Source: Sulfuriferula sp. AH1
Lineage (GTDB): Bacteria > Pseudomonadota > Gammaproteobacteria > Burkholderiales > Sulfuriferulaceae
DNA: 64,000 bases
Assembly: GCF_002162035.1 (NCBI RefSeq)
Contig: NZ_CP021138.1
Span: 1,178,001 to 1,242,000, forward strand
Direction of reading: 5' to 3'
Part shown: positions 26,021-39,698 of the stretch, piece after piece
How positions within the stretch are numbered: position 1 is the stretch's first letter
How the letters are laid out: each line of letters begins with the position of its first letter
The notes under the pieces: generated by a model
Database searches by the model: none
What the model was told of the DNA's origin: nothing
Seen by the model: the letters and a program-made list of their open reading frames with translations, nothing else
Position numbers and translations under genes: made by a program

Positions 26021-27313
26021 TCAGCTGCGGCGCTGCAGGTCGGTCGCTGCCAAATGCGATCTGGGAAAATGCATGTGGACTGGCATCGCCCGTCTGTAAA
26101 GCGCCGCAATGCCTGCGCTGACTTTTTCCCAGGTGAAATGTTCGTTTATGCGGGCTACGCAGTTGCTGGTCATGCGTTCGCTCAATTCATCATCGTGGAA
26201 TAGCCGTGCGAGCTTGGCGCCAACGAGGGTATGGTCGCGAGGGGGAATCAGAAATCCGGTCTTCCCTTCCACTACCGTATGTTTTATTCCGCCTACGTTA
26301 CTGCCGATGACCGGCGTGCCGCAGGCCATCGCCTCGATCGGCGTGATGCCGAATGGTTCATACCACGGCGTCGAGATGAACGCATCGGCGGCGCTGTAGT
26401 AGTACTTCAGTTCGCAGCGCGGGCGGGCGCCGACGAAGGTGACGGAATCCGTGATGCCGCATTCGTTGGTGATGATTTGCAGGCGCTTCAGTTCGGGCGT
26501 CAACTGCGGGTCGGGGGAGGGCGAGTCGCCGCCGACGATCAGCAAGCGGGCTTTTATTTGATGCATGCGCAACAATTCGGAGAAGCCGCGGATCGCGGTT
26601 TCGATACCTTTTCGCGGTACCCATCGACCCAGTTGCAACACGATGCGTTCCTGCGGCTTTACGCCGATGCAGGCACATGCCTCGCGTTTGGGAACAGGAT
26701 AGAATTCATTGGGATTGACGCCGCACGGAATGACTATGATTTTGCGGGCATCCACTTCGTATAAGGCTATCAGGTCGGTTTTGTCCTGCGGACATTCGGC
26801 GATAATCGCCTCTGCCTCATCCATCACCTCTTTTTCGATCTCGCAGCGTTCGGGCGGGAAGCGATCGTGACTGCCTTGATGCTGACGCCGCACCTTGCCC
26901 AATGCATGGAATGTGACGACAAAAGGGATATTGAGCGCCTGCTTAACGGCGATGGCGACATAGCCTGACATGAAGAAGTTGGCATGTACAAGATCGTATA
27001 TCCTGGATGATTTGCGCATGAAGCTGATCACTTCGGTTGCAAAATCATCCATAAAAGGCAAAAGCGATTCTTTAGCCATGCGCACTGACGGTCCGGCGCA
27101 AATATGAATAACGCGTACCCGTGGCGAGCAAATCACGACGTCAGGCAATTGGGCCGCATCGCGCCGCGTAAAGATATCCACCTCGTAGCCCATTCGGGCC
27201 AAGTGCACGGCTATCTCTGCCACATACACGTTTTGTCCGCCGCTGTCGATGCCGCCGAGCGCGGCTAACGGGGAAGCATGTTCGCTGATAAGTGCGATGC
27301 GATACATTTTCAT
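26021..27313 (-). CDS. glycosyltransferase family 4
   Basis: This GT4 enzyme of 430 residues has the N-terminal glycine-rich GGIDSGGQNVYVAEIA motif shared with MshA and sucrose-phosphate-synthase-type proteins, VLQLGRWVPRKGIET at the domain junction, and the C-terminal donor site YEPFGITPIEAMACG (EX7E type). I use the ATG at 27313 (AAGG before it) with MYRIALISEH two codons later. The annotated frame could extend 84 bases upstream, but that part lacks family similarity. It is the first gene of the minus-strand glycan operon, and a perfect palindrome of the GTACG-N4-CGTAC type lies about 200 bases upstream. Confidence 0.92.
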   Translation of the reverse strand: MKMYRIALISEHASPLAALGGIDSGGQNVYVAEIAVHLARMGYEVDIFTRRDAAQLPDVVICSPRVRVIHICAGPSVRMAKESLLPFMDDFATEVISFMRKSSRIYDLVHANFFMSGYVAIAVKQALNIPFVVTFHALGKVRRQHQGSHDRFPPERCEIEKEVMDEAEAIIAECPQDKTDLIALYEVDARKIIVIPCGVNPNEFYPVPKREACACIGVKPQERIVLQLGRWVPRKGIETAIRGFSELLRMHQIKARLLIVGGDSPSPDPQLTPELKRLQIITNECGITDSVTFVGARPRCELKYYYSAADAFISTPWYEPFGITPIEAMACGTPVIGSNVGGIKHTVVEGKTGFLIPPRDHTLVGAKLARLFHDDELSERMTSNCVARINEHFTWEKVSAGIAALYRRAMPVHMHFPRSHLAATDLQRRS

Positions 27314-28026
27314 GCGCCTTGAAAAAGAATAGGGGATAGGCAAGGCAAGGTATGAAAAAAGAGCTGTTTTCCCTGTGGCATCCTTATCTCCTGACAAATA
27401 GAAAAACTCCGTTAATGTATGTTTCGGTGGAAAAAATCACTCCCGTCCGGCGTCCAGCTAAATCATGAAAAGCCGGATGGACAGGGTCAGAGTAGAACGA
27501 ACGATTGGTCACCTCTGTACGGAAACGTACGCATGAGTATGGATAGTTCGTGGTTTTTTGATGGGAAGTGCACGGCCCCGATGGGTAATTTCATGAGGCG
27601 GATCAAAGATATCGCTCCGCAGACTTGCCTTTGATCGATATCTACCGCGTGGTTGTGTCTTTGGCGAGCGTCTAGGGTGATTAACCTATAGGCACCGTTC
27701 ATATATTTTCCTAATATGGTTTCACCAACGTCATTCAGCTGTGTGACCGGCTTTCAGCATGCGGTTGCCGACGTCTTGAATTTGCCTCTCTGTACTATTG
27801 TTCAAATTAATAATTAACAAAATGAAGATACAAAATACAAAAATGGCTTTTAGAGCACTTTGCAATTGGGGTCAAGCGTCATTACCCGCTTCATTTTTAA
27901 CCCCGTCAACCGGAATATGACTTCAACGGAGCGGCGAGACCTTACACGATCTCGCTTGGGAATGCCTTGTTATCGTCCATATTTCCAGGGTCTCTACTGA
28001 AATTCATAAGCAGATAGAGGATAAAA
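27314..28026. other. 713-base intergenic region between glycan operon and PAS-GGDEF gene
   Basis: No convincing gene is seen. It holds the palindrome at 27517-27530 (listed separately), an 8-base inverted repeat GATCAAAG/CTTTGATC at 27601-27608 and 27629-27636, and a 6-base hairpin GCGAGA/TCTCGC at 27934-27939 and 27950-27955 in the likely leader of the 28027 gene. The region around 27800-27880 is rich in A and T, as promoters often are. Short frames here (71 codons on each strand) have no recognisable similarity. Confidence 0.5.
27517..27530. promoter_or_regulatory. palindromic operator candidate, site S1 (perfect)
   Basis: GTACG-GAAA-CGTAC, arms perfect. It lies about 200 bases upstream of the minus-strand GT4 start and about 500 bases upstream of the PAS-GGDEF gene. 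Two 5-base arms around 4 bases is the architecture of Crp/Fnr-type sites. It is one of five such sites in the window. Confidence 0.5.
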
Positions 28027-29456
28027 ATGGCACAACGGCAAACAAAAAGCGCTTTATCTTATCCTTCTGAACAGGAGGATTTTCGTCGCTTACGGGAATC
28101 CTTTCCCGCCGGAAAGCAGTCGGCAGAGTGCACTCCACATGCCATGACCTTTATCGGGCAAGCTTTTGCGGAGGCTTGTGTGGATTGCGCCGACCAGTCC
28201 GGCCGCATGTTACTGCTGGTGACCGGGAATGGCGATATCCAGTTCTGCTGTGCGGAAACCGCCCGCTTTTTTGGCAGAGACATCCGGGCAATCCTTGGTT
28301 TGTCCCTGAACAATCTTTTACCGCAATTTTCATACAGCCTGTTTGATTGCAGAGGAAGCCATACTCATCCTGCCCCCATTATCGCGTCGGCAATGTGCAT
28401 GTTACGCGGCCGGATGGGCAGGCTGCTTCACTGGAAGCAGCGATAAGGGTTGTGGAAGGCGAAAGGAATTCCCTGTTTCTGCTTGAATTGCGGCAATCGT
28501 CTGCGACCGCGGACGCCAGCGAGAAACTGCTGCGTTTTCAGGATGTGGCGGAATGGAGCGAGGATGCGATTGCAGTCACTGACTCACAAGGCGTAATCGT
28601 ATATGTGAATCCGGTATTTGAAGCGCTCACCGGATATGGCAGAGATGAACTGATAGGCGCCACCCACGCGATCCTGAAATCGAATTTGCACGACCCGAAA
28701 CTGTATTCGCGGATGTGGAGAACCTTGCTTACCAAGCGCGCCTATCGTGGCCAGTTTGTCAATCGGCGTAAAAATGGCCGGCTGTTCTATGAGGACACGG
28801 TTATCCGGCCATTCTGCAATGCGTATGGCGAAATTACGCATTTCATCGCCTGCGGCCGTGACGTGAGCAAAAGGGTCAAGAGTATGCGGAAGCTTGAGCA
28901 CCTGGCCAATCACGACGGATTGACCGGATTGCCCAATCGCAATCTGTTCATGGACCGATTGCAGCAGGCGCAGGCTTACGCCTCCCGTCACAACAGCGGA
29001 TTTGCGCTGTTGCTGCTGGATCTCGATAGTTTCAAAGCGATTAACGATACCCATGGGCATTCCGTAGGCGATGCAGTGCTGCAAGCGGTGGCTAAACGCC
29101 TCAGGAAATCCTTGCGGGCGGAAGATACTGTGGCTCGGCTGGGTGGCGACGAGTTTGCATTGATTATCGAGAAAGCCGCCTCGCGTCATGATGTGCAGCC
29201 TGTGCTGGAAAACATGAAGGTGCAGCTGCAGACCCCATTTGCTTTTAAAGGCCTGAATCTTTCCATCGGGGCCAGTATCGGTATCGCCTTCTATCCGCTA
29301 CACGGCAGGAATAGCCACGATTTGATCAAGCACGCCGACCATGCGATGTACCGGGCCAAGGCGGCTGGCGGCAATGGTCATGTATTTTCCACGGATAAAA
29401 CGCATTGCCTGCTCCTGATACCGGGGCCTGTTTCGACGCCAGGATTCAACTTGTAA
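28027..29456 (+). pseudogene. PAS-PAS-GGDEF diguanylate cyclase, interrupted by a one-base deletion
   Basis: Two frames (28027-28446 and the downstream frame to 29456) encode one sensor protein of about 475 residues. The first frame holds the start of a PAS-like domain (LLLVTGNGDIQFCCAET). After the C5 run at 28373-28377 the protein continues in the other frame as HYRVGNVHVTRPDGQAASLE. It then has a canonical PAS domain (EDAIAVTDSQGVIVYVNPVF), a PAC-like segment, and a GGDEF domain with DGLTGLPNRNLF, LLLDLDSFKAINDTHGH and RLGGDEFALI. An intact GGDEF would make cyclic di-GMP. No EAL domain is present. The downstream frame alone could still yield an active enzyme if it were translated. Confidence 0.75.
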
Positions 29457-29491
29457 CCAGCCCTGAAAATTAACTTAAGGAGGGATTTATT

Positions 29492-30208
29492 ATGAATAAT
29501 ATTTCAAATTCGCAACGCAATCATATACTTGAAGCATTGCCTTCAGACGATTTCGAGCGTATCGTCCCTCATCTCGAATTAGTGTCGTTGCACGCGGGGG
29601 ATGCCCTCCTCGAAGTCGGGGATAAATTGCGCCATGTCTATTTCCCGGTTACGGCGACAGTCTCCCTGCTGTGCAATCTTGAAGACGGGGCTTCGGTGGA
29701 AGTCGCTTCCGTCGGCAATGAAGGGATAGTGGGTGTTTCGATCTTTATGGGAAATGACGGGGCGCTCACTCAGGCAACTGTGCAAACAGACGGTTCCGGT
29801 TATCGTTTGTCGGCCAAGGTGCTGAAAGAAGAATTCGAAAGAGGTGAGGCCTTGCAGCATTTTCTGATGCGGTATACGCGCACACTCTTTATTCAGATGG
29901 CGCAAACCACGGCCTGCAATCGCCGCCATTCGGTAGAGCAGCAGTTATGTCGCTGGCTGTTGCTGAATTTTGACCGGTTGCATACGAATACTCTGGAAAC
30001 CACGCAGGAATCGATTTCCCACATGCTAGGAGTACGCCGCGAAAGCGTTACCGAGGCGGCGCGCAGATTGCAGTCGGCGGGGATGATCAACTATCACCGC
30101 AAGCATATTGAGGTGGCCGACCGATCGGCGCTGGAAGCACATGTGTGCGAGTGCTACAGCGTGGTACGTAAGGAATCAGAGCGCTTTTTCTCGGAATTGC
30201 ATGTTTGA
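29492..30208 (+). CDS. Crp/Fnr-family transcriptional regulator
   Basis: The 238-residue protein has an N-terminal cNMP-binding-like beta-roll (about 15-140), a long dimer helix and a C-terminal winged helix-turn-helix (about 175-215) with ISHMLGVRRESVTEAARRL as the recognition region. I do not see the conserved Arg-Ala phosphate-binding cassette of cAMP-binding Crp or the N-terminal Cys cluster of Fnr, so the signal is unknown. A strong AAGGAGGG site precedes the ATG. It sits at the edge of the stress island and is a candidate reader of the GTACG-N4-CGTAC palindromes, whose two-arm spacing suits this family. That link is inference. Confidence 0.9.
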   Translation: MNNISNSQRNHILEALPSDDFERIVPHLELVSLHAGDALLEVGDKLRHVYFPVTATVSLLCNLEDGASVEVASVGNEGIVGVSIFMGNDGALTQATVQTDGSGYRLSAKVLKEEFERGEALQHFLMRYTRTLFIQMAQTTACNRRHSVEQQLCRWLLLNFDRLHTNTLETTQESISHMLGVRRESVTEAARRLQSAGMINYHRKHIEVADRSALEAHVCECYSVVRKESERFFSELHV

Positions 30209-30231
30209 AATGAGGGGTACTTGCAGTCATT

Positions 30232-31107
30232 TCAGGATGCCGGCCGTTTGACGCCGGTATGCCGGGTGGTGAGGATGCAGGTGATTTCCGCCCCGGTGAA
30301 GACAATAACCGACGAGTAATACACCCAGGTCAGAAAAACGATCAGAGATCCCGCAGCGCCGTAAGCAGAACCGACGGCGCTGCGGCCAAGGTAGATTCCG
30401 ATCATGTTTTTCCCCAGTGCAAACAGAATTGCAGTGACTATGCCGCCGGAGAATGCATTCCGCCATGAAATTTTGGTATCGGGTACGAACTTGAAGATCA
30501 GTGCGAACAATGCGGAAAACACAAGCAAGGTGACAAGAAAATTCATGAACTGCCAGATTTGTCCTTCCCCGGTAAGGAAAAATGAGAGCACCGTGCTTAC
30601 CAGCAGGGAAACCAGTGCAAGAAAACCCAGCGAGATGACCATACCCATGGAAAGGAGCCGGTGACGGATAAGGCTCCATAATCCGGCACTGATCTTCCCT
30701 TCGATTTCCCAGATTTTATTCAGGGAATACTGGAGCTGGACAAAGACACTGCTGGCCGAAAAGACCAGAAACAGGATGCCGAGGGTGCGAGCCAGGTTTC
30801 CCAGAGACGGGCGGGTATGTGCGCTGTGGATGACGGTGGTGATCGCGGTGGAGGCCTGATCTCCCAGCACGTTTCGAATCTCCTCCAGCAATCGGGTCTG
30901 GGAATGTTCTCCCAGCACGCCGACGACGGAAAGCGTGATCAGCAGCAGAGGGGACAAAGACAAGGCCGTGTAAAAAGCCAGCGCAGCCGAAAGGGTGAGT
31001 ATCTCGTGTTTGCTGAATTTTTCCAGCAGCTCTTTACCCACTGAAAACCATCTGTTCATACTGACGGTGTCGCTAATGGCATGGGTAATTTTGACAAGTT
31101 TGTTCAT
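30232..31107 (-). CDS. YihY/BrkB-family inner-membrane protein
   Basis: The 291-residue protein is hydrophobic, with about six membrane segments, and carries the YihY signature (TLSAALAFYTALSLSPLLLI, then FVFSASSVFVQLQYSLNKIWE-like sequence and the C-terminal GAAGSLIVFLTWVYYSSVI). Members were once mis-called ribonuclease BN; the biochemical role is unsettled. I use the ATG at 31107 (MNKLVKITHA), with AGGCG before it, instead of an upstream in-frame start. It converges with the crp-like gene (23 bases between stops). The 31136 gene lies upstream on the same strand, 28 bases away, so the two may be cotranscribed. Confidence 0.88.
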   Translation of the reverse strand: MNKLVKITHAISDTVSMNRWFSVGKELLEKFSKHEILTLSAALAFYTALSLSPLLLITLSVVGVLGEHSQTRLLEEIRNVLGDQASTAITTVIHSAHTRPSLGNLARTLGILFLVFSASSVFVQLQYSLNKIWEIEGKISAGLWSLIRHRLLSMGMVISLGFLALVSLLVSTVLSFFLTGEGQIWQFMNFLVTLLVFSALFALIFKFVPDTKISWRNAFSGGIVTAILFALGKNMIGIYLGRSAVGSAYGAAGSLIVFLTWVYYSSVIVFTGAEITCILTTRHTGVKRPAS

Positions 31108-31135
31108 GGCATCGCCTGTATGAGAGCACTCAGGG

Positions 31136-31684
31136 TTAAGCGAGGATGCATTCGCCGCTATGGGTCTGCCAGCTATTCGCGATATGCGCGGCATCCTGAT
31201 GGTTGCGTGGCTTGACGGAAATCATGATGCCGCCTGCCATGAGCCCGCGTTCATACTGCTTGATATGCTGTTCGGGGATACGCCAGCGGAACAAGGTGTC
31301 GGCGAGGCTTCTGGCAAGGCCGCCTGCTTCGGCATTGATTGCAGAATAAGTGCCGGCCACGACCAGCCTGAACCTTGATAGCACCAGCGGGGTTCCGACT
31401 GCGGCCAGCGCGTACTCGATTGCATCTGGCGCGGCATCGCCCGCATCTCTGTCGATTGCGGCTCTGCAGGCCGATTGGCTAATGCCGGGTTGCCCTGAAT
31501 AATAGCGCTTTTGGGTTGCTTCCGACATCGCGACATTGATGTCGTTGAAGCTGTAACCGCGTTCGAAGACGGATCTGTACGCCTGTTCGGCCTTGCTCAG
31601 ATCGTGAAAGATCGCGCTGATCATCGGCGACTGAGAAAAGTGGGCGGGTGCGCTGCTTATATGTATTGAGGAATTTATCATCAT
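31136..31684 (-). CDS. uncharacterised stress-type protein, relative of the 39728 product
   Basis: I do not recognise a named domain with certainty. Residues 20-60 (MISAIFHDLSKAEQAYRSV) look like the N-terminal alpha/beta unit of YflT/general-stress-17M-like proteins, with a helix scanning for a partner residue pattern. The C-terminus (IPEQHIKQYERGLMAGGIMISV) parallels the VPEYEAKQYEARVKEGNILISV segment of the protein at 39728. The glycine-zipper middle of that protein is replaced here by an unrelated Ala-rich segment. Length is 182 residues with no signal peptide. It shares a divergent intergenic region with the DUF883 gene. Confidence 0.6.
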   Translation of the reverse strand: MMINSSIHISSAPAHFSQSPMISAIFHDLSKAEQAYRSVFERGYSFNDINVAMSEATQKRYYSGQPGISQSACRAAIDRDAGDAAPDAIEYALAAVGTPLVLSRFRLVVAGTYSAINAEAGGLARSLADTLFRWRIPEQHIKQYERGLMAGGIMISVKPRNHQDAAHIANSWQTHSGECILA

Positions 31685-32033
31685 GACTATCCTTCCTGAA
31701 AGGGAAGGTCACTATCCGACGGGGGTATCCATTGGTATTTCAACTGTCCTGTGATCTCGGGAAGACGTTGCAAAGGGACCCATTCATCCGTTGCTCATTT
31801 CCCCTTGTTAAGAAAATGTTACAAAACCAAGACTAATGCTGCCGAACCCGCAATTCTGTACGGTAAACCACAAAATTCAGCAGTGACTATCTTCGGTCTT
31901 GCGCGTGCTTACGAGAGGCTGAATGTACGATATCGTACGGAAAGGCAGATTGTCGCAGGAGTACATTGAGTCCACCGTTTCATGATTGGAATGTCTCACC
32001 AACCCTTTGATTAAAACGTGATGGAGAATGATT
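31685..32033. other. 349-base divergent intergenic region
   Basis: This separates the minus-strand 31136 gene from the plus-strand DUF883 gene. It contains a half-site CTGTACG (31856-31862) and the perfect palindrome at 31925-31938 (listed separately). A CCTTCC-GAAGG-type small hairpin lies next to the start of the minus-strand gene (CCTTCCTGAAAGGGAAGG near 31690-31710). No gene was found. Confidence 0.5.
31925..31938. promoter_or_regulatory. palindromic operator candidate, site S2 (perfect)
   Basis: GTACG-ATAT-CGTAC is a perfect 14-base palindrome including its centre. Its centre is about 102 bases before the DUF883 start (32034). Confidence 0.55.
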
Positions 32034-32360
32034 GTGAATACCATTATATCCGACCTGCAAGCGGATGCTGCCAAAGCGCCGCTGGAAAATGATTTGCAGG
32101 CAGTGATTGCCGATACCGAGGCGTTGCTTAAACTTACCGCCAATCAGGGCGGCGAGTCGATTCAGGCATTGCGCGGCAAGGCTGAAAAATCGCTCGCTGT
32201 CGCCAAAGTTAAAATGACGGAGGCCCACGATGTGCTCATGGAAAAAACCGGTGCTGCATTACGTGCCACCGATCATTACGTTCATGAGAAGCCTTGGCAC
32301 GCCGTTACATTTGCCGCCGGTGCCGGTTTAGTGGCCGGATTGCTGATGGGGCGTCGTTAA
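32034..32360 (+). CDS. DUF883 family protein (ElaB/YqjD-like)
   Basis: This 108-residue protein has the ElaB/YqjD plan: a long amphipathic, possibly coiled-coil N-terminal part rich in Ala, Lys and Glu (residues 1-75) and one C-terminal hydrophobic segment (VTFAAGAGLVAGLLMG) ending in RR. ElaB/YqjD proteins are stationary-phase, inner-membrane-anchored and have been linked to ribosome binding in E. coli; here that is family knowledge only. I use the GTG at 32034, with GGAG 7 bases before it, rather than an ATG at 32028 that is only one base from the same site. The YqjE-like gene follows 6 bases later. Confidence 0.88.
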   Translation: MNTIISDLQADAAKAPLENDLQAVIADTEALLKLTANQGGESIQALRGKAEKSLAVAKVKMTEAHDVLMEKTGAALRATDHYVHEKPWHAVTFAAGAGLVAGLLMGRR

Positions 32361-32366
32361 GCTGCC

Positions 32367-32756
32367 ATGAAAAGGGCAAATCATTCCGTCGGTACGGGGC
32401 TGCTCGATTCGCTCAGGATGCTGGCACGCTCCCTGATCGCTATCCTGCATACGCGAATGGAACTGCTCGCCATCGATCTGGAAGAAGAGCGCGAACGCCT
32501 GTCAACGTTAATAGCACTATTGCTGATGGCGCTGTTCTTTATCGGGTTAGGCATCGTCCTCTCGACACTGCTGATTATTGTCATGTTCTGGGATACACAC
32601 CGCTTGCAGGTCTTGGCCGGACTTACCGGGTTGTTCCTGGTCGGAGGAATGGTGGCTATCTGGACGGCACTGCAAAAAATACGTACCTTGCCTCGGATTT
32701 TTGCCGCCACGCTTGCCGTATTGTATCGGGACAGCACGCGTTTGCCACCTCATTGA
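32367..32756 (+). CDS. YqjE-like / holin-superfamily III membrane protein
   Basis: The 129-residue protein has an N-terminal amphipathic helix (LLDSLRMLARSLIAILHTRMEL) and two hydrophobic segments (about residues 48-75 and 80-105). This matches the YqjE/phage_holin_3_6 type that commonly follows YqjD in proteobacteria. It is not evidence of a phage. It is cotranscribed with the DUF883 gene (6-base gap) and is followed by a 152-base gap holding operator candidate S5. Confidence 0.85.
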   Translation: MKRANHSVGTGLLDSLRMLARSLIAILHTRMELLAIDLEEERERLSTLIALLLMALFFIGLGIVLSTLLIIVMFWDTHRLQVLAGLTGLFLVGGMVAIWTALQKIRTLPRIFAATLAVLYRDSTRLPPH

Positions 32757-32792
32757 ATTCACCTTTCGGGTGGATGGAAAAAAGACCGTTTG

Positions 32793-32806
32793 GTGTGTTT
32801 GCGTAC
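32793..32806. promoter_or_regulatory. operator candidate, site S5 (right arm perfect, left arm degenerate)
   Basis: GTGTG-TTTG-CGTAC, followed by GGA as in site S2. The left arm matches the consensus at three of five positions and is identical to the left arm of S4. Its centre is about 109 bases before the hemerythrin-like gene at 32909. Confidence 0.45.
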
Positions 32807-32908
32807 GGAATCACGGATGCACCGGGTTTATTGTGGGTTCGTTCTGATGCAGGACAACAGGCGACGCAGGCTGCGTCTATTCATTCGCAATTACGCAAAG
32901 GAATAATC

Positions 32909-33394
32909 ATGGACGTTATCGAGTTATTGATAAATGACCACCGTAGAATCGAAAAGCTCTTGGCCCAACTGGGAAGCGCTGGCGCAAAAGAGATTACCGA
33001 TCGTGCAGAGCTATTTGAGGAATTAAAAGGCGAACTCGATTGCTACGCTGAAAACGAACAGATGATTTTTTACCCGGTAATACTGGAAGCCGACGAAACC
33101 TACGAAATCGCGCTGGAAGGCTATGAAGAGCTTTTTGTGATTCAGGATATCCTGGTTGAGATGGAATCAGTGGATGTGGATTCGCCGGAATGGAAGGCAA
33201 ATTTTCTGCTTCTCAAGGAAAAAGTCGAGCTGCATTTTAAAGAAGAAAATGAGGAGATATTCCCCAAGGCCTTGCAGGAATTAAGCAGGAGCCAGCTTCT
33301 TGAGTTGGGTAAACGGATCAAGGTCAACCGGGAAGGTTTTTTCTGGCGGCAGCTACCGGAAAGCGGCCAGGAAATCCCGGATGCTAGAAGATAA
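32909..33394 (+). CDS. hemerythrin-like protein with missing iron ligands
   Basis: The 161-residue protein has the four-helix hemerythrin-like pattern (MDVIELLINDHRRIEKLL, then AENEQMIFYPVI, ALEGYEELFVIQDIL and VELHFKEENEEIFP). Compared with the intact relative at 34683, His11, Glu50 and His109 remain, but Tyr46 stands where the second helix His is expected, Leu108 replaces the first His of the HH pair, and no His is seen near residue 72. It may therefore bind no diiron centre, or a different metal. I use the ATG at 32909 (AAGGA 6 bases before); the open frame upstream is not coding. Topoisomerase IB follows 11 bases later. Confidence 0.85.
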   Translation: MDVIELLINDHRRIEKLLAQLGSAGAKEITDRAELFEELKGELDCYAENEQMIFYPVILEADETYEIALEGYEELFVIQDILVEMESVDVDSPEWKANFLLLKEKVELHFKEENEEIFPKALQELSRSQLLELGKRIKVNREGFFWRQLPESGQEIPDARR

Positions 33395-33405
33395 TCCGAA
33401 TACCG

Positions 33406-34461
33406 GTGAATAAGGCGTCTTCCGGCGGCGCATCTATTCATGTGGATACTGCAGCCGGCACGGATTCTGTTGCAGTAGCCCAATCCGCCGGTCTGCGTTA
33501 TACCGTCGATGACGGCCCCGGCATTTCGCGCCGTGCCGTCAAGGATGGTTTCCTATATTATGCTCCGGACGGCAAAGAGATTCGAGATCCGGATGTGCTG
33601 GAGCGTATCCGCCGATTGGCACTCCCTCCCGCATGGCAGAATGTATGGATCTGCCTTCATGATAACGGACACCTGCAGGCTACCGGACGTGATGTGCGGG
33701 GCCGCAAACAGTATCGTTATCACGCCGATTGGCGCAAGGTACGCGACGAAACCAAATTCGCTCGCATGGTGCTTTTCGGCAAGCAGCTCAAGAGGATTCG
33801 CGCTCGCGTGGATGCTGATCTGGCAAAAGCCGGTATGCCGCGCGAAAAAATCCTTGCGCTTGTAGTGCGGTTGCTGGAAACAACGCTGATACGCGTCGGT
33901 AATGAAGACTACGCGAAGCAGAACAAATCATTTGGTTTAACCACGATGCGTAGCCGTCACGTCCATCTTTCCGGTTCTTCAGTCGTATTTGAATTTCGCG
34001 GCAAGAGTGGCAAATGGCATTCCATCCGCGTTGAAAATCGGCGCCTTGCGCGTATCGTGAAGAATTGTCTGGAGATTCCAGGACAGGAATTGTTTCAATA
34101 CGTCGATGGTGATGGGCGGCGACAGTCCATCGATTCCAGTGACGTGAATCGTTATCTCCATGAAATTTCCGGACAGAATTTTACTGCCAAGGATTTCCGG
34201 ACCTGGGGCGGGACAGTGCGGGCGCTCATGGTCTTTACATCGATGACGCCCTGCGACTCGCCTATGCATGCGAAGCAGCATGTGAATGCGGCGATCCAGC
34301 GCGTTGCGCGGCAGCTGGGCAATACCCCTGCAGTCTGTCGCAAATATTATATTCATCCGGCCATAATCGAAGCTTACGAAGGGGGCAAGTTTTCCAGACT
34401 GAGATTTCCGGACCCATTGGAAGAGGGGGGCGGTATCACGATCACATCGAGAAAACGGTAA
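33406..34461 (+). CDS. DNA topoisomerase IB (poxvirus-type)
   Basis: The 351-residue protein matches bacterial poxvirus-like type IB topoisomerases, which nick and reseal one strand through a 3'-phosphotyrosine. Seen are the N-terminal beta domain (GISRRAVKDGFLYYAPDG, LALPPAWQNVWIC), Arg163 in LIRVGNEDYA, the Lys loop GKSGKWHSI near 199-207, Arg265 in DFRTWGGTV and the catalytic Tyr315 in NTPAVCRKYYIHP. The start is a GTG at 33406. It lies 11 bases after the hemerythrin-like gene and appears to be cotranscribed with it. The catalytic set looks intact. Confidence 0.92.
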   Translation: MNKASSGGASIHVDTAAGTDSVAVAQSAGLRYTVDDGPGISRRAVKDGFLYYAPDGKEIRDPDVLERIRRLALPPAWQNVWICLHDNGHLQATGRDVRGRKQYRYHADWRKVRDETKFARMVLFGKQLKRIRARVDADLAKAGMPREKILALVVRLLETTLIRVGNEDYAKQNKSFGLTTMRSRHVHLSGSSVVFEFRGKSGKWHSIRVENRRLARIVKNCLEIPGQELFQYVDGDGRRQSIDSSDVNRYLHEISGQNFTAKDFRTWGGTVRALMVFTSMTPCDSPMHAKQHVNAAIQRVARQLGNTPAVCRKYYIHPAIIEAYEGGKFSRLRFPDPLEEGGGITITSRKR

Positions 34462-34588
34462 TCAAATTACTCCAAAAAGCGGCGCAAGCAAACTTTAAAT
34501 CTGTGTAGCGGACTGCCGTCGTGTTTGGCCTCGTCTTTGGCGTCTATTGGGGCGGCATTACGGCACGTGGAATGGGAAAAGCCTGCCA

Positions 34589-34607
34589 GCCCCCGTTTTA
34601 TGGGGGC
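34589..34607. other. GC-rich hairpin before site S3
   Basis: GCCCCC (34589-34594) pairs with GGGGGC (34602-34607) around a 7-base T-rich loop. There is no T run after it. It may be a weak terminator for topoisomerase IB or part of the regulatory region. Confidence 0.35.
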
Positions 34608-34611
34608 ATGA

Positions 34612-34625
34612 GTACGTTACCGTAC
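34612..34625. promoter_or_regulatory. palindromic operator candidate, site S3 (perfect)
   Basis: GTACG-TTAC-CGTAC with perfect arms. Its centre is about 64 bases before the hemerythrin gene at 34683. Confidence 0.55.
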
Positions 34626-34682
34626 ATACACGATTCGATTTTTTCGGAAGAATGTGAACTTAATCCATCAAGGAGTGTGTTC

Positions 34683-35144
34683 ATGACGACCGAATCAAAC
34701 GATTTGATCACTTTGCTGGTCAAGGATCATAAAGAAGTAAAAGAGATGTTCGAAGAATTCGAATCATTGTCCGATCATTCCAAGGCCAGCAAAAAGAAAA
34801 TCGCCGATCAGATTTGTCAGGTGCTGACTGTGCATGCCCAGGTAGAAGAGGAAATCCTTTATCCCGCCGTACGCAGTGTGATCAAAGGTAAGGGGCTGGT
34901 TGATGAAGCCATAGTGGAACATGCCAGTGCAAAGGAGTTGATAGCGCACATCCGGAATATGGATCCGGGCGACGATCTTTATGATGCCCGGCTCAAAGTG
35001 CTTTCAGAACAGGTCGAACATCACGTTGAAGAGGAAGAAAACAAGATGTTTCCTCAAATGCGCCAGGCCGATCTGGATCTGGTGACACTGGGCAAGGAAA
35101 TCATGTCGCGGAAGGAACAGCTTGAAAGCGATGCAGGAAAATAG
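34683..35144 (+). CDS. hemerythrin HHE domain protein
   Basis: The 153-residue protein has the full hemerythrin-type ligand set: His16 (LLVKDHKEVKEMF), His51 and Glu55 (HAQVEEEILYP), His80 (IVEHASAKELI), His113/His114 and Glu118 (VEHHVEEEENKMFP). Such proteins bind a diiron centre and are linked to oxygen, NO or oxidative stress responses; the precise role here is unknown. The ATG at 34683 has AGGAG 7 bases before it. The longer open frame from 34521 crosses operator site S3 and is not coding. A CACACT/AGTGTG hairpin follows the stop (35145-35160). Confidence 0.92.
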   Translation: MTTESNDLITLLVKDHKEVKEMFEEFESLSDHSKASKKKIADQICQVLTVHAQVEEEILYPAVRSVIKGKGLVDEAIVEHASAKELIAHIRNMDPGDDLYDARLKVLSEQVEHHVEEEENKMFPQMRQADLDLVTLGKEIMSRKEQLESDAGK

Positions 35145-35231
35145 CACACTAACGAGTGTGACGATAGCCGTCGGACGCGCTGGTCAAGCAGCGGTTTTGT
35201 ATTCATATCTGCATTTGAAACATTTTAGTGG

Positions 35232-36775
35232 ATGGGTATGAACATGAAACGACATATTGCCGGGATTACATTGCAGGTAACCATGCAAACTATTGGTTTA
35301 TCGTCGAGTCTCGCAAATACGAGCCACTCAGTTACCCGGACCGACACTGTCACTGCCGAATTGAGTAAGGACGTGGCGGTTGAGAAAGGCGGCCCTTATG
35401 ACCGCGTGTTCTATCCGAAAAATCTGCCTTCAAGGGAAGACGCAAAATCGTTCACGAGCAGTTGGGAATACCTGGCATCCAGCCCGGTACATAATGCCGC
35501 TTTTGAATTGTCCGATGCTGCTCCTGCATGGTTGCGTCACGGCGTTGAATGGAATTTCGCTGAAGCCCGCGCCTGGCCGCTTGATCGTAAAGATTCATTC
35601 GACGAAGCGATTTATGGCGCGCGGCGCGGGCCTTCCACTCAGACGCAATTTTACGGTAATGCTGTCGGCGTTTCGGTGGTGAACGGCATCGTTTATGCGG
35701 AAAGCGACGATCAGTTTGCATACGCTGTGAATGCACATACCGGTAAATTGATCTGGCGTACCAGCCCTGTGGGCAATACCCTTATGGGCACGCCGATCGT
35801 GGCTGAAGGCAATGTGTATCTGTCGGTCGGTAACGTTGGTTTCAACTTTTCCAACGTCACCAAATTCGCTAAAACCAGGACGGCGGTGCGCGGAGAAGGC
35901 ATCAGTTTTAACGGGATTTATGCTCTTGCCGCCAAAACCGGCGAGCTGATCTGGCACTATGGGACGGATGGCGAAGCCATGCCAACGCCTGCTTACAGCC
36001 ATGGCCGTCTGTATATCACTACGGGGGATGGCTACGCACAAGCAATAGACGCCAAAACCGGCAAGCTTGCATGGAAAACGGAGCTCAAGGGCATGGCCAA
36101 CATGTCGAGCCCCTCGATAGCGGACGGCAAGATGTATGTGGCGATGTCTTCGCCGGGCGGGGTGTTTTGTCTGGATGAGAATAGCGGAAAAGTGCTGTGG
36201 AAATCGAACATCCAGGGCGCTGAAGATACCGGCATCGGCGATGTCTCGCCAGCCGTCAGCAATGGCATCGTGGTGATGGATGCAGTGGCGGATGCCAAAC
36301 AGGAAAAAGGCAAATCAACCATGGATACGCGCATCGTCACTTATGATGCCAAAACCGGAAAGATCCTGTGGCAGGCTAATATGGGCCGAGGACCGAAACC
36401 GCCTGCATTCAAGGGCGGTGTGCCGATGATCCACGACGATGTGCTGTATGTGGGTACGCCGGTTAATAACGTGTTCAGGCTTACGATTTGAAGTCCGGCA
36501 AGCTTGAATGGACCTGGCATGTGCCTGATGTCAGTGCGGCCGGCTCGGGGCGGGGCGCACCCACTTACTATAAAGGAACGCTTTATGCCTCGACCGGTGA
36601 GTATCTTTATGCCATCAATCCCGCAAATGGCACGCTGATCAACAAATACCATGTCGGCGGCCGCTTCGGTATTGTGAACCCCGTTATTGTTGGCGGCACC
36701 ATGTTCCTGAGCAACTCGTGGGACTGGCTCCAAGCGATTCCTTTATCTAAAGTGAATCCGTCCGCAAAGATCTAA
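35232..36775 (+). pseudogene. PQQ-like beta-propeller (quinoprotein-type) protein, one-base frameshift
   Basis: Two frames encode one protein of about 515 residues with a probable signal peptide (MKRHIAGITLQVTMQTIGLSSSLA) and repeated propeller blades of the type YAVNAHTGKLIWRT, YALAAKTGELIWHY, QAIDAKTGKLAWKT, FCLDENSGKVLWKS and TYDAKTGKILWQA. The first frame ends at 36491. Adding one base at the TT at 36481-36482 gives FRLYDLKSGKLEWTW and the frame then runs to 36775 with a final blade. The blades are BamB/PQQ-dehydrogenase-like, but I cannot see a PQQ or haem site. The likely location is periplasmic. Substrate is unknown. Confidence 0.75.
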
Positions 36776-36880
36776 CGATTTTGTAATCAATTCGCTCAAG
36801 GAAAGCCTATTTGAAGAATCTTCATAAAATGCTGCATAAAAAGTCCGATTTCAATGCCAGTTGCACTGTATATGCTCAGT

Positions 36881-36896
36881 CCGAAGTGAACTTCGG
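36881..36896. promoter_or_regulatory. 16-base palindrome upstream of LuxR-family gene
   Basis: CCGAAGT-GA-ACTTCGG: perfect 7-base arms around 2 bases, 170 bases upstream of the 37065 start. It is a possible operator for the LuxR-type regulator. Confidence 0.4.
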
Positions 36897-36915
36897 TCAT
36901 CGGAAATTGACCTGT

Positions 36916-36983
36916 CAGATATGGTCATGGCCATATCTGCCTGATTAGTTCGACATGTACTGCCGGCCTCGTCATGGGGCCGG
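36916..36983 (+). other. two consecutive hairpins in the LuxR gene leader
   Basis: CAGATATGG (36916-36924) pairs perfectly with CCATATCTG (36931-36939). CCGGCC (36963-36968) pairs with GGCCGG (36978-36983). Neither has a T run. They could form a structured leader, or end the upstream beta-propeller transcript with Rho help. Confidence 0.4.
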
Positions 36984-37064
36984 TGCATGTGGATAATTGC
37001 TTTGGTTATTATTAACATGCGTCTCAATTTAGAACCGAATTTCTATCCTCAGAGGACGCAGAGA

Positions 37065-37832
37065 ATGAACGATACTGGACAATATAATCAGGCGCTATTA
37101 GAGGCCATGAGCTCGTTGACGTCCATCACGACGAAGAGTGCTTTTATCGAATGGACCCGGAATAAATTACAGCCCGCGTTTCCCCATAATGCGTTTGCTG
37201 GATGGGTGGGGAAGCTAGATGCGGCGGAGGTCTTGCCTTTTGAAGTCGTCTGCTCGAATTTACCGGATGAGTATATCGAGAGCATAAAGACGGAAAATGG
37301 GCATTACACCACGCCGCTAATGAAAAGATGGCTGCATAGCGGTCAACCGCAATTGTTTGAATTGGATAAAGGCAGCCAGGAGTTCGATCGCATATGGCTG
37401 GAGGCTTTCAAGGCTGCCGATTTGCGTAATACCGCTTCTTACGGCGCTTTTGATATCACGGGGCGGTACGTCACCTATTTCAGCTTCTATCGACTGCAGG
37501 AGCCGCTTGGCGAATGGCATCAGCTTCAGTTGAAGATCATTATGCCGAGTATGCACTCGACATTGCTGGTTATCCGCAATCAGAACATCAATGTTGAACA
37601 AGCATCAGATCGTTCGCCACTTACCCCGCGCGAACGTGAAGTGCTGGTGTGGATTTGCGAAGGCAAAACCAGCGATGAGATTGCATCTATTCTGGGAATA
37701 TCCTTTAAAACGGTGGAAAATCACGCACAAAATGTGCTTGAGAAATTGAACGTGCATAATCGTGCGCAAGCCGCTGCAAAGGCTTATCAGCTCAAATTGG
37801 TGCGCGTGGGTCCACGTTTGGCCGATATCTGA
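37065..37832 (+). CDS. LuxR-family transcriptional regulator (EpsA-like)
   Basis: The 255-residue protein has a C-terminal LuxR helix-turn-helix (LTPREREVLVWICEGKTSDE, IASILGISFKTVENHAQNVL) after a 190-residue sensor part. That part resembles the EpsA regulators found beside exopolysaccharide clusters in methylotrophic betaproteobacteria, a tentative match from memory. I use the ATG at 37065, with AGAGGA before it, rather than an upstream in-frame ATG. It lies before a UDP-glucuronate decarboxylase gene, so control of polysaccharide synthesis is plausible. An intrinsic terminator follows 30 bases after the stop. Confidence 0.85.
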   Translation: MNDTGQYNQALLEAMSSLTSITTKSAFIEWTRNKLQPAFPHNAFAGWVGKLDAAEVLPFEVVCSNLPDEYIESIKTENGHYTTPLMKRWLHSGQPQLFELDKGSQEFDRIWLEAFKAADLRNTASYGAFDITGRYVTYFSFYRLQEPLGEWHQLQLKIIMPSMHSTLLVIRNQNINVEQASDRSPLTPREREVLVWICEGKTSDEIASILGISFKTVENHAQNVLEKLNVHNRAQAAAKAYQLKLVRVGPRLADI

Positions 37833-37862
37833 CTCATCGCAAGCGATTTACGCACAACAAAA

Positions 37863-37894
37863 TCGGGGATGCCTGATGGTTTCCCGAATTTTTT
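37863..37894 (+). terminator. intrinsic terminator after LuxR-family gene
   Basis: TCGGGGA (37863-37869) pairs with TTCCCGA (37881-37887), one G-T wobble, 11-base loop, then ATTTTTT. Confidence 0.7.
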
Positions 37895-38062
37895 CTATCA
37901 TCAAAATGACATTGAGAGATGTTAATTTGAAGACCACATATATTTATTTCAATAAATGTGCGTTTTCGCACCGACTCCGAAATCCCTTTGCTTTAACCTT
38001 ATTGCTGCTCAATCTGGCTGATCCGGCTGCAATTGTTATTACAGGACCATAAGGAGCGTGGA

Positions 38063-39025
38063 ATGCGTAGATATGATGTACGGCGGAGTCTGGTTACCGG
38101 CGGAGCGGGTTTTCTTGGCTCGCATTTGTGCGAGCGTCTTTTGCAGGATGGCCATGATGTTCTCTGTGTCGATAATTTCTATACCGGCACCAAGGCAAAC
38201 ATCGCACATCTGCTGAACAATCCCCGTTTTGAATGCATGCGGCATGATGTTACTTTTCCGTTATATATTGAAATCGATGAGATTTATAATCTGGCCTGTC
38301 CGGCATCGCCGATTCATTATCAGCATGACCCGGTGCAGACAGCGAAAACCAGTGTGCATGGGGCTATCAACATGCTCGGTTTGGCTAAGCGGGTAAAAGC
38401 AAGAATATTTCAGGCTTCGACCAGTGAGATATATGGGGACCCACAAATTCACCCGCAGGCTGAAGATTACTGGGGGCATGTTAATCCTATCGGGTTGCGT
38501 TCCTGTTATGACGAAGGCAAACGCTGCGCGGAAACCTTGTTTTTCGATTACCACCGCCAGCATCAATTAAGTATCAAAGTCGCCCGCATCTTCAATACCT
38601 ACGGTCCGCGCATGCATCCGAATGACGGGCGAGTCGTATCCAATTTCATCGTCCAGGCATTATCCGGCCAGGCGATCACCATTTATGGGGACGGGACACA
38701 AACGCGTTCGTTCTGTTTTGTGGAGGACATGATAGACGGTTTTGTGCAGTTGATGAACAGCGAAGATGAGATGATGGGGCCGATGAACCTTGGTAACCCG
38801 GTCGAATACAGCATGCTGGAATTGGCTGAAATGGTAATCAGGCTTACCGATTCAAAATCCAGGATCGTCCATGAACCGCTCCCGCCGGATGACCCCACTC
38901 AACGCTGCCCCGATATCACGTTGGCGCAGGAGAGACTTGGCTGGCAACCAAGGGTATCGCTGGAAGAGGGATTAAGGAAAACCATCGCCTATTTTCGTAA
39001 CAATTGCCCTGCTTTCAGGAGGTGA
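38063..39025 (+). CDS. UDP-glucuronic acid decarboxylase (UDP-xylose synthase), SDR family
   Basis: This 320-residue extended SDR protein has [17 protein letters not shown] for NAD binding, [19 protein letters not shown] (the decarboxylase signature, quoted in part), the active-site region [10 protein letters not shown], and [11 protein letters not shown] with the catalytic Tyr and Lys. It converts UDP-glucuronate to UDP-xylose, a donor for surface glycans. The start at 38063 has AAGGAG 6 bases before it. It is preceded by a terminated LuxR gene, and a hairpin follows at 39107. Confidence 0.9.
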
Positions 39026-39106
39026 TCCGCCTTTCCACACAGATTTCAATTATCAGTACACCCCTCAGTACCATCATAAAAAGCTTTAAACAAATTAAAG
39101 CATCAA

Positions 39107-39140
39107 CAGTCGGGCGGTCATGCTGGACGCCGCCCGGCTG
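39107..39140 (+). terminator. strong GC-rich hairpin after the decarboxylase gene
   Basis: CAGTCGGGCGG (39107-39117) pairs with CCGCCCGGCTG (39130-39140) with one G-T wobble and a 12-base loop. It lacks a T run, so it may be a Rho-assisted end or an mRNA-stabilising structure. Confidence 0.4.
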
Positions 39141-39187
39141 ATGTTCTACCCAAGTAAAAACAAACAAACGGGCTGCCTGTTTTCAAT

Positions 39188-39201
39188 GTGTGTTCACGTA
39201 C
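39188..39201. promoter_or_regulatory. operator candidate, site S4 (right arm perfect, left arm degenerate)
   Basis: GTGTG-TTCA-CGTAC followed by AGA. The left arm is identical to that of S5. Its centre is about 111 bases before the BON-domain gene at 39306. Confidence 0.45.
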
Positions 39202-39210
39202 AGAGCCGGG

Positions 39211-39242
39211 AGCATTGAAGGTCTTATTATGCCTTCAATGCT
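39211..39242. other. perfect 11-base inverted repeat in the BON gene leader
   Basis: AGCATTGAAGG (39211-39221) and CCTTCAATGCT (39232-39242) are exact complements around a 10-base loop. It lies between site S4 and the 39306 start and could be an operator or a leader hairpin. Confidence 0.45.
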
Positions 39243-39305: not shown

Positions 39306-39698
39306 ATGAAAAAGCCCTTATTTGTTGCCATGGGTTTAATGTTTGTCTCTACACTGGTGAATGCGGCAGAACCGTTATCCCCGGATACAGACCCAACCAT
39401 GAAACAGCATTCTCCGGGTAACACGCAAATCAATAAGCGGGACGAGAACGATCAGACGCTTACGCCCATGGATCAGTCGAATACGGTAGAAGATACGCAT
39501 ATCACCCAGGCCATTCGCAAGGAAATCATGCAGCGGCCCCTTTCCATGGACGCGAAAAATGTGAAGATCATTACGCTGAACGGTGACGTTACCTTACGCG
39601 GGCCCGTCAAGAACAAAGCCGAAAAGGAAAAGATCGGCGCTGATGCAAAAGCAGTCCCCGGTGTTAAAAACCTGAACAATGAACTGGAAGTTCAATAG
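39306..39698 (+). CDS. BON-domain periplasmic protein
   Basis: The 130-residue protein has a signal peptide (MKKPLFVAMGLMFVSTLVNA), an acidic/polar linker and a C-terminal BON domain (about residues 62-128) with ITLNGDVTLRGPVKNKAEK and AKAVPGVKNLNNELEV. BON proteins such as OsmY are periplasmic and bind phospholipid or glycan-rich surfaces; OsmY is induced by osmotic stress. The 39728 gene lies 29 bases downstream on the same strand and is probably in the same operon. AAGGAG precedes the start. Confidence 0.9.
   Translation: MKKPLFVAMGLMFVSTLVNAAEPLSPDTDPTMKQHSPGNTQINKRDENDQTLTPMDQSNTVEDTHITQAIRKEIMQRPLSMDAKNVKIITLNGDVTLRGPVKNKAEKEKIGADAKAVPGVKNLNNELEVQ

Follow-up and report, generated by a model that had tools for sequence, protein, structure and literature searches.

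The stretch of DNA analysed here (the window, 64,000 nucleotides) corresponds to positions 1178001-1242000 on the main contig of Sulfuriferula sp. AH1, whose genome measures 2.9 Mb, and its noncoding DNA carries several copies of a palindrome, GTACG-N4-CGTAC, which very probably serves as the binding site for a poorly known family of Crp/Fnr regulators with one member encoded at 29492 (Table 1; positions of up to five digits refer to the window, longer ones to the contig). The initial annotation had listed perfect copies at 27517, 31925 and 34612 and copies of the form GTGTG-N4-CGTAC at 32793 and 39188. All five were found again, and scoring of the open reading frames, called with a home-made codon-score script, places each of them between genes. 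Two changes were needed: 32793, ahead of the hemerythrin and topoisomerase IB genes, stands only as a weak match whose support comes mainly from the right arm and from the spacing to its -10-like element, and a site at 37955-37974 had been overlooked. The distances given from the centres to the downstream gene starts also held, with 96-102 bases for the DUF883 gene (depending on the start codon chosen), 109.5 and 64.5 for the two hemerythrin genes and 111.5 for the BON gene, and Pfam agrees with the families named for the neighbours (DUF883, two hemerythrins, topoisomerase IB, BON and Crp at 29492). The Phage_holin_3_6 protein is one that we take to be YqjE-like.

Table 1. Predicted operators and surrounding genes in the window; matrix scores and -10-like hexamers are explained in the text
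Feature	Positions	Strand	Core or family match	Matrix score	-10-like hexamer	Remarks
Group 1 glycosyltransferase	26021..27307	-				First gene of leftward glycan cluster; predicted target of 27514
Operator	27514..27533	-	GTACG-N4-CGTAC perfect (at 27517)	16.2	TACTCT 27489-27494, - strand	
Crp/Fnr-family regulator	29492..30208	+	HTH_Crp_2, cNMP_binding			Candidate binder; signature CNRxH ... CxCY
Operator	31922..31941	+	GTACG-N4-CGTAC perfect (at 31925)	17.3	TACATT 31962-31967	Before DUF883/YqjE-like genes
DUF883 protein	32034..32360	+	Pfam; ElaB match below cut-off			Predicted target
Phage_holin_3_6 / YqjE-like membrane protein	32367..32756	+	Pfam			
Weak operator candidate	32790..32809	+	GTGTG left arm (at 32793)	7.7 (rank 12)	TATTGT 32829-32834	
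Hemerythrin-domain protein	32909..33394	+	Pfam			
Bacterial topoisomerase IB	33406..34461	+	Pfam			
Operator	34609..34628	+	GTACG-N4-CGTAC perfect (at 34612)	17.9 (window's top)	AAGAAT 34648-34653, weak	
Hemerythrin-domain protein (second)	34683..35144	+	Pfam			Predicted target
Operator	37955..37974	+	TGTGCG-N4-CGCACC	16.7 (third)	TAACCT 37994-37999	Before epimerase/dehydratase gene
NAD-dependent epimerase/dehydratase	38063..39025	+				Predicted target of 37955
Operator	39185..39204	+	GTGTG left arm (at 39188)	12.3 (fifth)	TATTAT 39225-39230	Before BON gene
BON-domain protein	39306..39698	+	Pfam; OsmY match below cut-off			Predicted target

The copies had been judged unlikely to arise by chance, and intergenic bias, clustering and shuffle counts all agree with that judgement. 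The genome holds nine perfect cores, seven of them intergenic (binomial p 1e-5 to 1e-6, the genome being about 88-91% coding), and five of the nine lie inside 40 kb (simulated p 2e-5). The window accounts for three of the intergenic cores, 1172665 and 1175025 closely precede it, and the remaining pair, 2117135/2117158, separates the gene of a 703-residue catalase from a CsbD gene; the two genic ones, at 393584 and 1742593, score low on the matrix described below (1.0 and 9.3). In the intergenic DNA of the window and of locus L129, GTACG-N4-CGTAC occurs five times against 0.0 in shuffles (in our own scripts, 10 or 20 sequences per test sampled from a first-order Markov model, which does not preserve dinucleotide counts exactly) and is the sole listed dyad with at least three copies. 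Cores with one mismatch are background as a class, since 36 of 40 are coding and 4 intergenic, so that, unlike the perfect set, this background is biased towards coding DNA; among the intergenic ones, those at 1164020 and 1172572 reach matrix scores of 21.1 and 19.1. Among the 49 perfect or one-mismatch cores, the nine with a score of at least 14 are all intergenic, and the top coding core scores 13.7. Mismatch counting with the bare core discriminates poorly and was replaced by the matrix. The comparison of frequencies inside and outside genes which the initial annotation had proposed is favourable for the perfect cores and unfavourable for the one-mismatch cores. The repeated palindrome itself is confirmed.

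The motif was rediscovered independently of the window in 40 loci of at most 19 kb, each surrounding an orthologue of 29492. These loci belong to other families of the order, none to the genus of the window, and were taken from 64 places by similarity of the Crp protein alone, ignoring sites. All 5-base dyads with gaps of 0-12 were counted in their intergenic DNA and compared with the expectation from 10 shuffles. The top dyad was GTGCG-N4-CGCAC, with 22 copies against 0.4 expected, in 12 genomes, followed by TGTGC-N6-GCACA (15 against 0.0) and TATGT-N10-ACATA (11 against 0.1), which are pieces of the same word; GTTCG-N4-CGAAC (6 against 0.2) and GTACG-N4-CGTAC (5 against 0.0) also exceeded expectation. 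Across the 160 arms of 80 intergenic sites, the fourth position is occupied by G, A or T, C being absent throughout. Because of the dyad search and of this variation, we write the operator as TATGTRCG-N4-CGYACATA, the motif of the family, of which the GTACG form is a local variant preferred by the home genome; the profile behind it contains 100 sites drawn from every locus available, including loci fetched for a site. The form first described is therefore present but incomplete: the full palindrome spans 16-20 bp, has an outer T...A and is degenerate at the fourth arm base. A two-fold symmetric site of about 16 bp, as found here, is what a Crp/Fnr operator looks like.

For scoring, a matrix was built from 39 sites upstream of Crp genes outside the genus, so that neither the genus loci nor the window supplied training sites. 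Its five best matches in the window, those at 34609, 31922, 37955, 27514 and 39185 in this order, are all intergenic, and the top coding match comes sixth with 10.2. Shuffling the window 20 times gave a mean of 11.8 for the highest score, with a single shuffle attaining 17.7, and a mean of 7.0 for the fifth highest; the window scores are therefore notable as a set and not singly. A weaker match at 31855 (9.9) has a -10-like element toward the gene at 31136. The 11 genus loci chosen by the Crp gene alone gave 20 intergenic and 0 coding matches at a score of at least 14 (20 and 3 at a score of at least 10), and all 16 genus loci, among which L104, L116, L129 and L130 were chosen for a site and the window is included, gave 38 and 0. 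The order loci gave 113 and 14 at a score of at least 14, counts which are not independent, since many training sites come from there.

The site is linked to the subfamily of 29492 through its position and its distribution. Among 100 distinct Crp-like genes preceded by sufficient sequence, 23 have a perfect TGTNCG-N4-CGNACA in the 330 bp before the start and 20 others a site with one mismatch; the perfect sites divide according to identity to 29492, with 22 of 80 at 45% or more and 1 of 20 below. A matched test on 99 Crp-like genes found this word upstream in 23, downstream in 2 and inside in none, and with one mismatch allowed in 42, 16 and 0; some downstream matches are expected, as the promoter of the next regulon member may follow the Crp gene. 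Of seven genus loci with other Crp/Fnr genes, one yielded no gene to test, and the six genes from the rest (18-24% identity) have no site, the best score being -4.4. Among relatives, then, the palindrome recurs around Crp orthologues of other families, often directly upstream, as the initial annotation had suggested checking. It is also present in one family of another class of the phylum (L243, L244, L257), and in later loci from other collections a strong site lies 105-117 bases upstream in two of the four examined; of four loci retrieved in one search, the partial match L308 was left aside and L045 offers just 134 bases ahead of its match.

Co-occurrence of the site with the 29492 orthologue, another check suggested earlier, was assessed in 150 genomes, a genome being counted as carrying the Crp gene at E <= 1e-60. 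TGTRCG-N4-CGYACA is present in 31 of 41 genomes with the gene versus 37 of 109 without it (p 7e-6), and the reversed control is flat across the same genomes (19 of 41 versus 56 of 109). The exception with the most sites among the gene-less genomes, G027, has a Crp gene cut at a contig end, and moving it changes the counts to 32 of 42 versus 36 of 108 (p 3e-6). In a profile search of seven further site-bearing genomes that lack a close Crp gene, six had no Crp match at E <= 1e-10 and G033 gave a weak match of 44 bits. The association between site and gene is strong and not absolute, and is to be read with the relatedness of the genomes in mind, which are not independent. CsbD genes follow the regulator as well, occurring in 33 of 41 genomes with the Crp gene versus 10 of 60 examined without it.

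The geometry of the neighbouring promoters was studied with 49 sites having a target on one side only, by recording the best -10-like hexamer at each distance from the centre. This distance peaks at 29.5 bases. The pattern NANNNT occurs at 28.5-30.5 bases in 33 of 49 on the target side versus 8 of 49 on the other (p 5e-7), and nine control distances gave 2-13 of 49 whichever side was taken; for the stricter TANNNT the counts are 18 of 49 versus 4 of 49 (p 1e-3). The five sites listed by the initial annotation all have the hexamer on the target side and none on the other, and the hexamer is present at 37955 too. At 27517 the -10-like element points left, so this site would serve the glycan genes, as had been supposed, and not the PAS-GGDEF and Crp genes to its right. 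With a -10 element starting at -12, the site centre falls at -41.5, the class II position known from E. coli CRP, as judged from the predicted hexamers.

The protein encoded at 29492 belongs to the Crp/Fnr family, since both Pfam models (the cyclic-nucleotide-binding-like N-terminal domain and HTH_Crp_2) score over their cut-offs. Its predicted fold is that of CRP/FNR (mean predicted local distance difference test score 81.6 from an alignment of five sequences), and the top Foldseek matches are CRP, a Crp/Fnr-family protein, GlxR and FNR; no solved structure is close to it in sequence, the best PDB match having E 0.0029. In the recognition helix, R183 is kept in 92 of 92 relatives and E184 in 80 of 92. 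The same 92 relatives keep C142 (91), H146 (99%), C219 (91) and C221 (92) nearly invariant, within the signatures CNRxH and a C-terminal CxCY, a set which differs from the plan of FNR and suggests a metal or thiol sensor. The 29492 gene starts 35 bases behind a PAS-GGDEF frame, and because of this spacing and of the lack of a site of its own it is probably co-transcribed with it. The PAS-GGDEF gene, immediately ahead of crp, is itself split over two overlapping frames: 28027-28446, which matches nothing in Pfam, and 28347-29456; the region 28027-29456 possibly contains a frameshift or two genes.

The predicted targets, described here by the 25 commonest families of each set, are of the stress type (DUF883, BON, CsbD, catalase, hemerythrin), in line with the stress regulon proposed at the outset. 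In the order loci, 114 targets (2 of 116 were dropped because their length was not in whole codons) include HTH_Crp_2 27 times, CsbD 7, BON 6, response regulators 4, GGDEF 3, DUF883_C 2 and DUF3309 2, with the HTH_Crp_2 count inflated by the selection of these loci for their Crp genes. The 56 genus targets (2 of 59 dropped for the same reason, and L133:15428-19000 because it runs off its locus) include CsbD 5, DUF883_C 5, BON 4, DUF4398 4, AsmA 3, HTH_Crp_2 2 and catalase 1. NCBIfam models for ElaB and OsmY matched targets below cut-off and the lmo0937-family model matched over it. At the catalase and CsbD genes of the home genome, the two operators (L130:5136-5172, that is G000:C1:2117135-2117171) form one long inverted repeat, and each -10-like element faces one of the two genes.

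These targets resemble the RpoS-dependent genes of E. coli; DUF883/ElaB, YqjE, OsmY/BON, CsbD and a large catalase are usually tied to the RpoS or general stress regulon of enterobacteria, which is controlled through a sigma factor promoter, whereas here a Crp/Fnr operator is found. The E. coli CRP site, TGTGA-N6-TCACA, shares with the present one the outer TGT...ACA, arms spaced 5-6-5 and use at the class II position, and the proteins share the fold, but the inner half-site here is NCG (G, T or A before CG) and not GA, and the Foldseek matches listed have 10-20% identity. FNR belongs to the same family and is likewise used in class II, but binds a different half-site, TTGAT-N4-ATCAA, and its N-terminal cysteine cluster is missing from 29492, whose first cysteine is residue 61 and whose near-invariant cysteines (142, 219, 221) include none at the N-terminus. 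The local GTA...TAC variant fits the NtcA word GTA-N8-TAC; unlike in NtcA, the fourth base varies across the family, the inner CG is fixed and the 29492 family has the additional cysteine signature, and 29492 scores 21.4 bits against the NCBIfam cut-off of 244.95 for the NtcA equivalog. Another Crp/Fnr subgroup that was uncharacterised until 2022 is that of RedB of Rhodobacter capsulatus, which uses a non-palindromic, AT-rich 12-bp motif, unlike the present one, and represses energy production and protein synthesis (PMC9603854). The literature searched yielded no report of this operator or regulon, and an earlier prediction may still stand in the CRP/FNR motif survey of Matsui (2013).

Taken with a probability of about 0.8, our reading is that the palindromes are class II operators of a Crp/Fnr subfamily including 29492 and activate stress genes. 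The initial annotation had already seen in them the site of a Crp/Fnr-type dimer, and the motif found again around Crp genes, the sites upstream of these genes and the co-occurrence all support this. A homodimer would bind TATGTRCG-N4-CGYACATA, in the home genome mostly as TGTACG-N4-CGTACA, would sit about 41.5 bases before the transcription start in place of a -35 element, and would from there activate transcription. In the window this would switch on the DUF883/YqjE genes, the two hemerythrin units, the BON and the epimerase genes and, leftwards, the glycan operon; elsewhere in the home genome it would switch on the catalase and CsbD genes, a second DUF883-like gene, lipoproteins and small membrane proteins, and in many relatives the site would also drive the regulator's own gene. 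The motif, its tie to the subfamily, the promoter spacing and the targets are results of computation, whereas binding, activation as opposed to repression, the choice of 29492 among the paralogues and the signal are inferences. A bolder version, which we hold to be less likely than not, makes the CNRxH/CxCY proteins a widespread, undescribed proteobacterial Crp/Fnr subfamily of metal- or thiol-sensing, self-amplifying class II master activators of an RpoS-like regulon, acting through TATGTRCG-N4-CGYACATA.

As the binder, 29492 had been proposed at the outset. The site is tied to its subfamily, but 29492 is not singled out, since Crp paralogues of this kind number at least three in the home genome (the others at 1173589 and 1899246), and its own gene has no site upstream (best 4 mismatches). 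The same class of operator might thus be bound mainly by 1173589, whose helix reads VRRVGIS, or by 1899246, with 29492 binding little or sharing the sites. The perfect sites 1172665 and 1175025, among the densest, flank 1173589, and VRRVG-type genes of relatives have upstream sites (perfect in L142, one mismatch in L143, L178, L180, L186 and L191). Yet G004, G007, G009, G013 and G015 have intergenic perfect cores, and in them the search reported VRREG-type genes and no VRRVG-type gene, which suggests that the VRREG type suffices, and the division of upstream sites by identity to 29492 points the same way; we hold the paralogue as main binder to be rather unlikely. Less probable still is that the dimer represses, blocking its promoters until a signal frees them: some Crp/Fnr proteins are repressors, and the many sites before the regulator's own gene would fit autorepression too, but the hexamer peak corresponds to class II spacing and does not place the site over the -10 element or the start. 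Quite improbable is a palindrome of some other regulator travelling with the Crp gene, such as a response regulator, the LuxR-type gene at 36987 or a MarR protein. Response regulators are found among the genes flanking the sites and MarR_2 matches 6 of 114 targets, possibly on the helix-turn-helix of the Crp proteins themselves; against this, a 16-base dyad of Crp-like geometry recurs upstream of Crp genes in other families, and HTH_Crp_2 is the commonest target family, though biased by the choice of loci.

Several results weigh against activation by the 29492 subfamily or against the motif itself. Reversing the pattern gives 10 matches genome-wide versus 9 for the perfect core and 239 versus 49 at one mismatch, and the reversed pattern is also commoner in most relatives, so that simply counting the bare core across the genome is poor evidence; as GCATGC-type words have a frequency of their own, this control was judged unsuitable for the bare core, and comparisons were made instead with shuffled sequence, with coding DNA and with the other flank of the sites. 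The pattern with up to two mismatches is common (31 in the window against 16 expected, a number reached by 1 of 100 shuffles), and in the genus outside the home genome only 19 of 49 perfect cores are intergenic. In the genus loci chosen by Crp, GTGCG-N4-CGCAC (3 against 0.0) stands behind AGCGA-N9-TCGCT (6 against 0.1). Ten of the 41 genomes with the gene lack TGTRCG-N4-CGYACA while 37 of the 109 gene-less ones possess it, and the inspected sites are coding in 8 of 17 cases where the genome is gene-less versus 4 of 13 where it has the gene. G003 and G010 (80% and 64% complete) and G014, which has G/T-variant sites, carry a Crp orthologue and no intergenic perfect core. The comparison at CsbD loci gave 7 of 29 versus 1 of 11, which does not settle the matter alone, with few controls because CsbD is commoner where the Crp gene is present (one of 30 loci was dropped as clipped, and the family match stood for the gene start). 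The -10 hexamers were matched permissively, and the one at 34612 is weak. Some of this, in particular the coding one-mismatch cores and the reversed control, would also be expected if GTAC-rich words merely gathered in AT-richer intergenic DNA; intergenic bias, shuffles and promoter spacing speak against such an effect of chance or composition, and the dyads recurring across families in the order loci and the upstream/downstream test contradict it, leaving it a negligible probability.

If class II activation by this subfamily is correct, it would explain the joint switching on of DUF883/YqjE, OsmY-like, CsbD, hemerythrin and catalase genes in many bacteria. A large Crp/Fnr group, which the libraries searched name only by family, gains an operator that can be tested, along with its promoter geometry and a list of predicted targets. 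The matrix can be used to find the regulon elsewhere, and the near-invariant cysteine and histidine set points to the signal worth testing first.

Two smaller observations concern other genes. In the genus, 8 of 32 coding perfect cores, which also count against the motif, fall in genes for 112-residue proteins (L086, L091, L105, L106, L108, L121, L123, L127) that are presumably PII-like, as judged from the start of the protein, and these cores probably reflect no more than a coincidence of codons within a conserved peptide. In the window, a PQQ/BamB-like beta-propeller spans the frames 35232-36491 and 36488-36775, the match of the second frame being below the Pfam cut-off.

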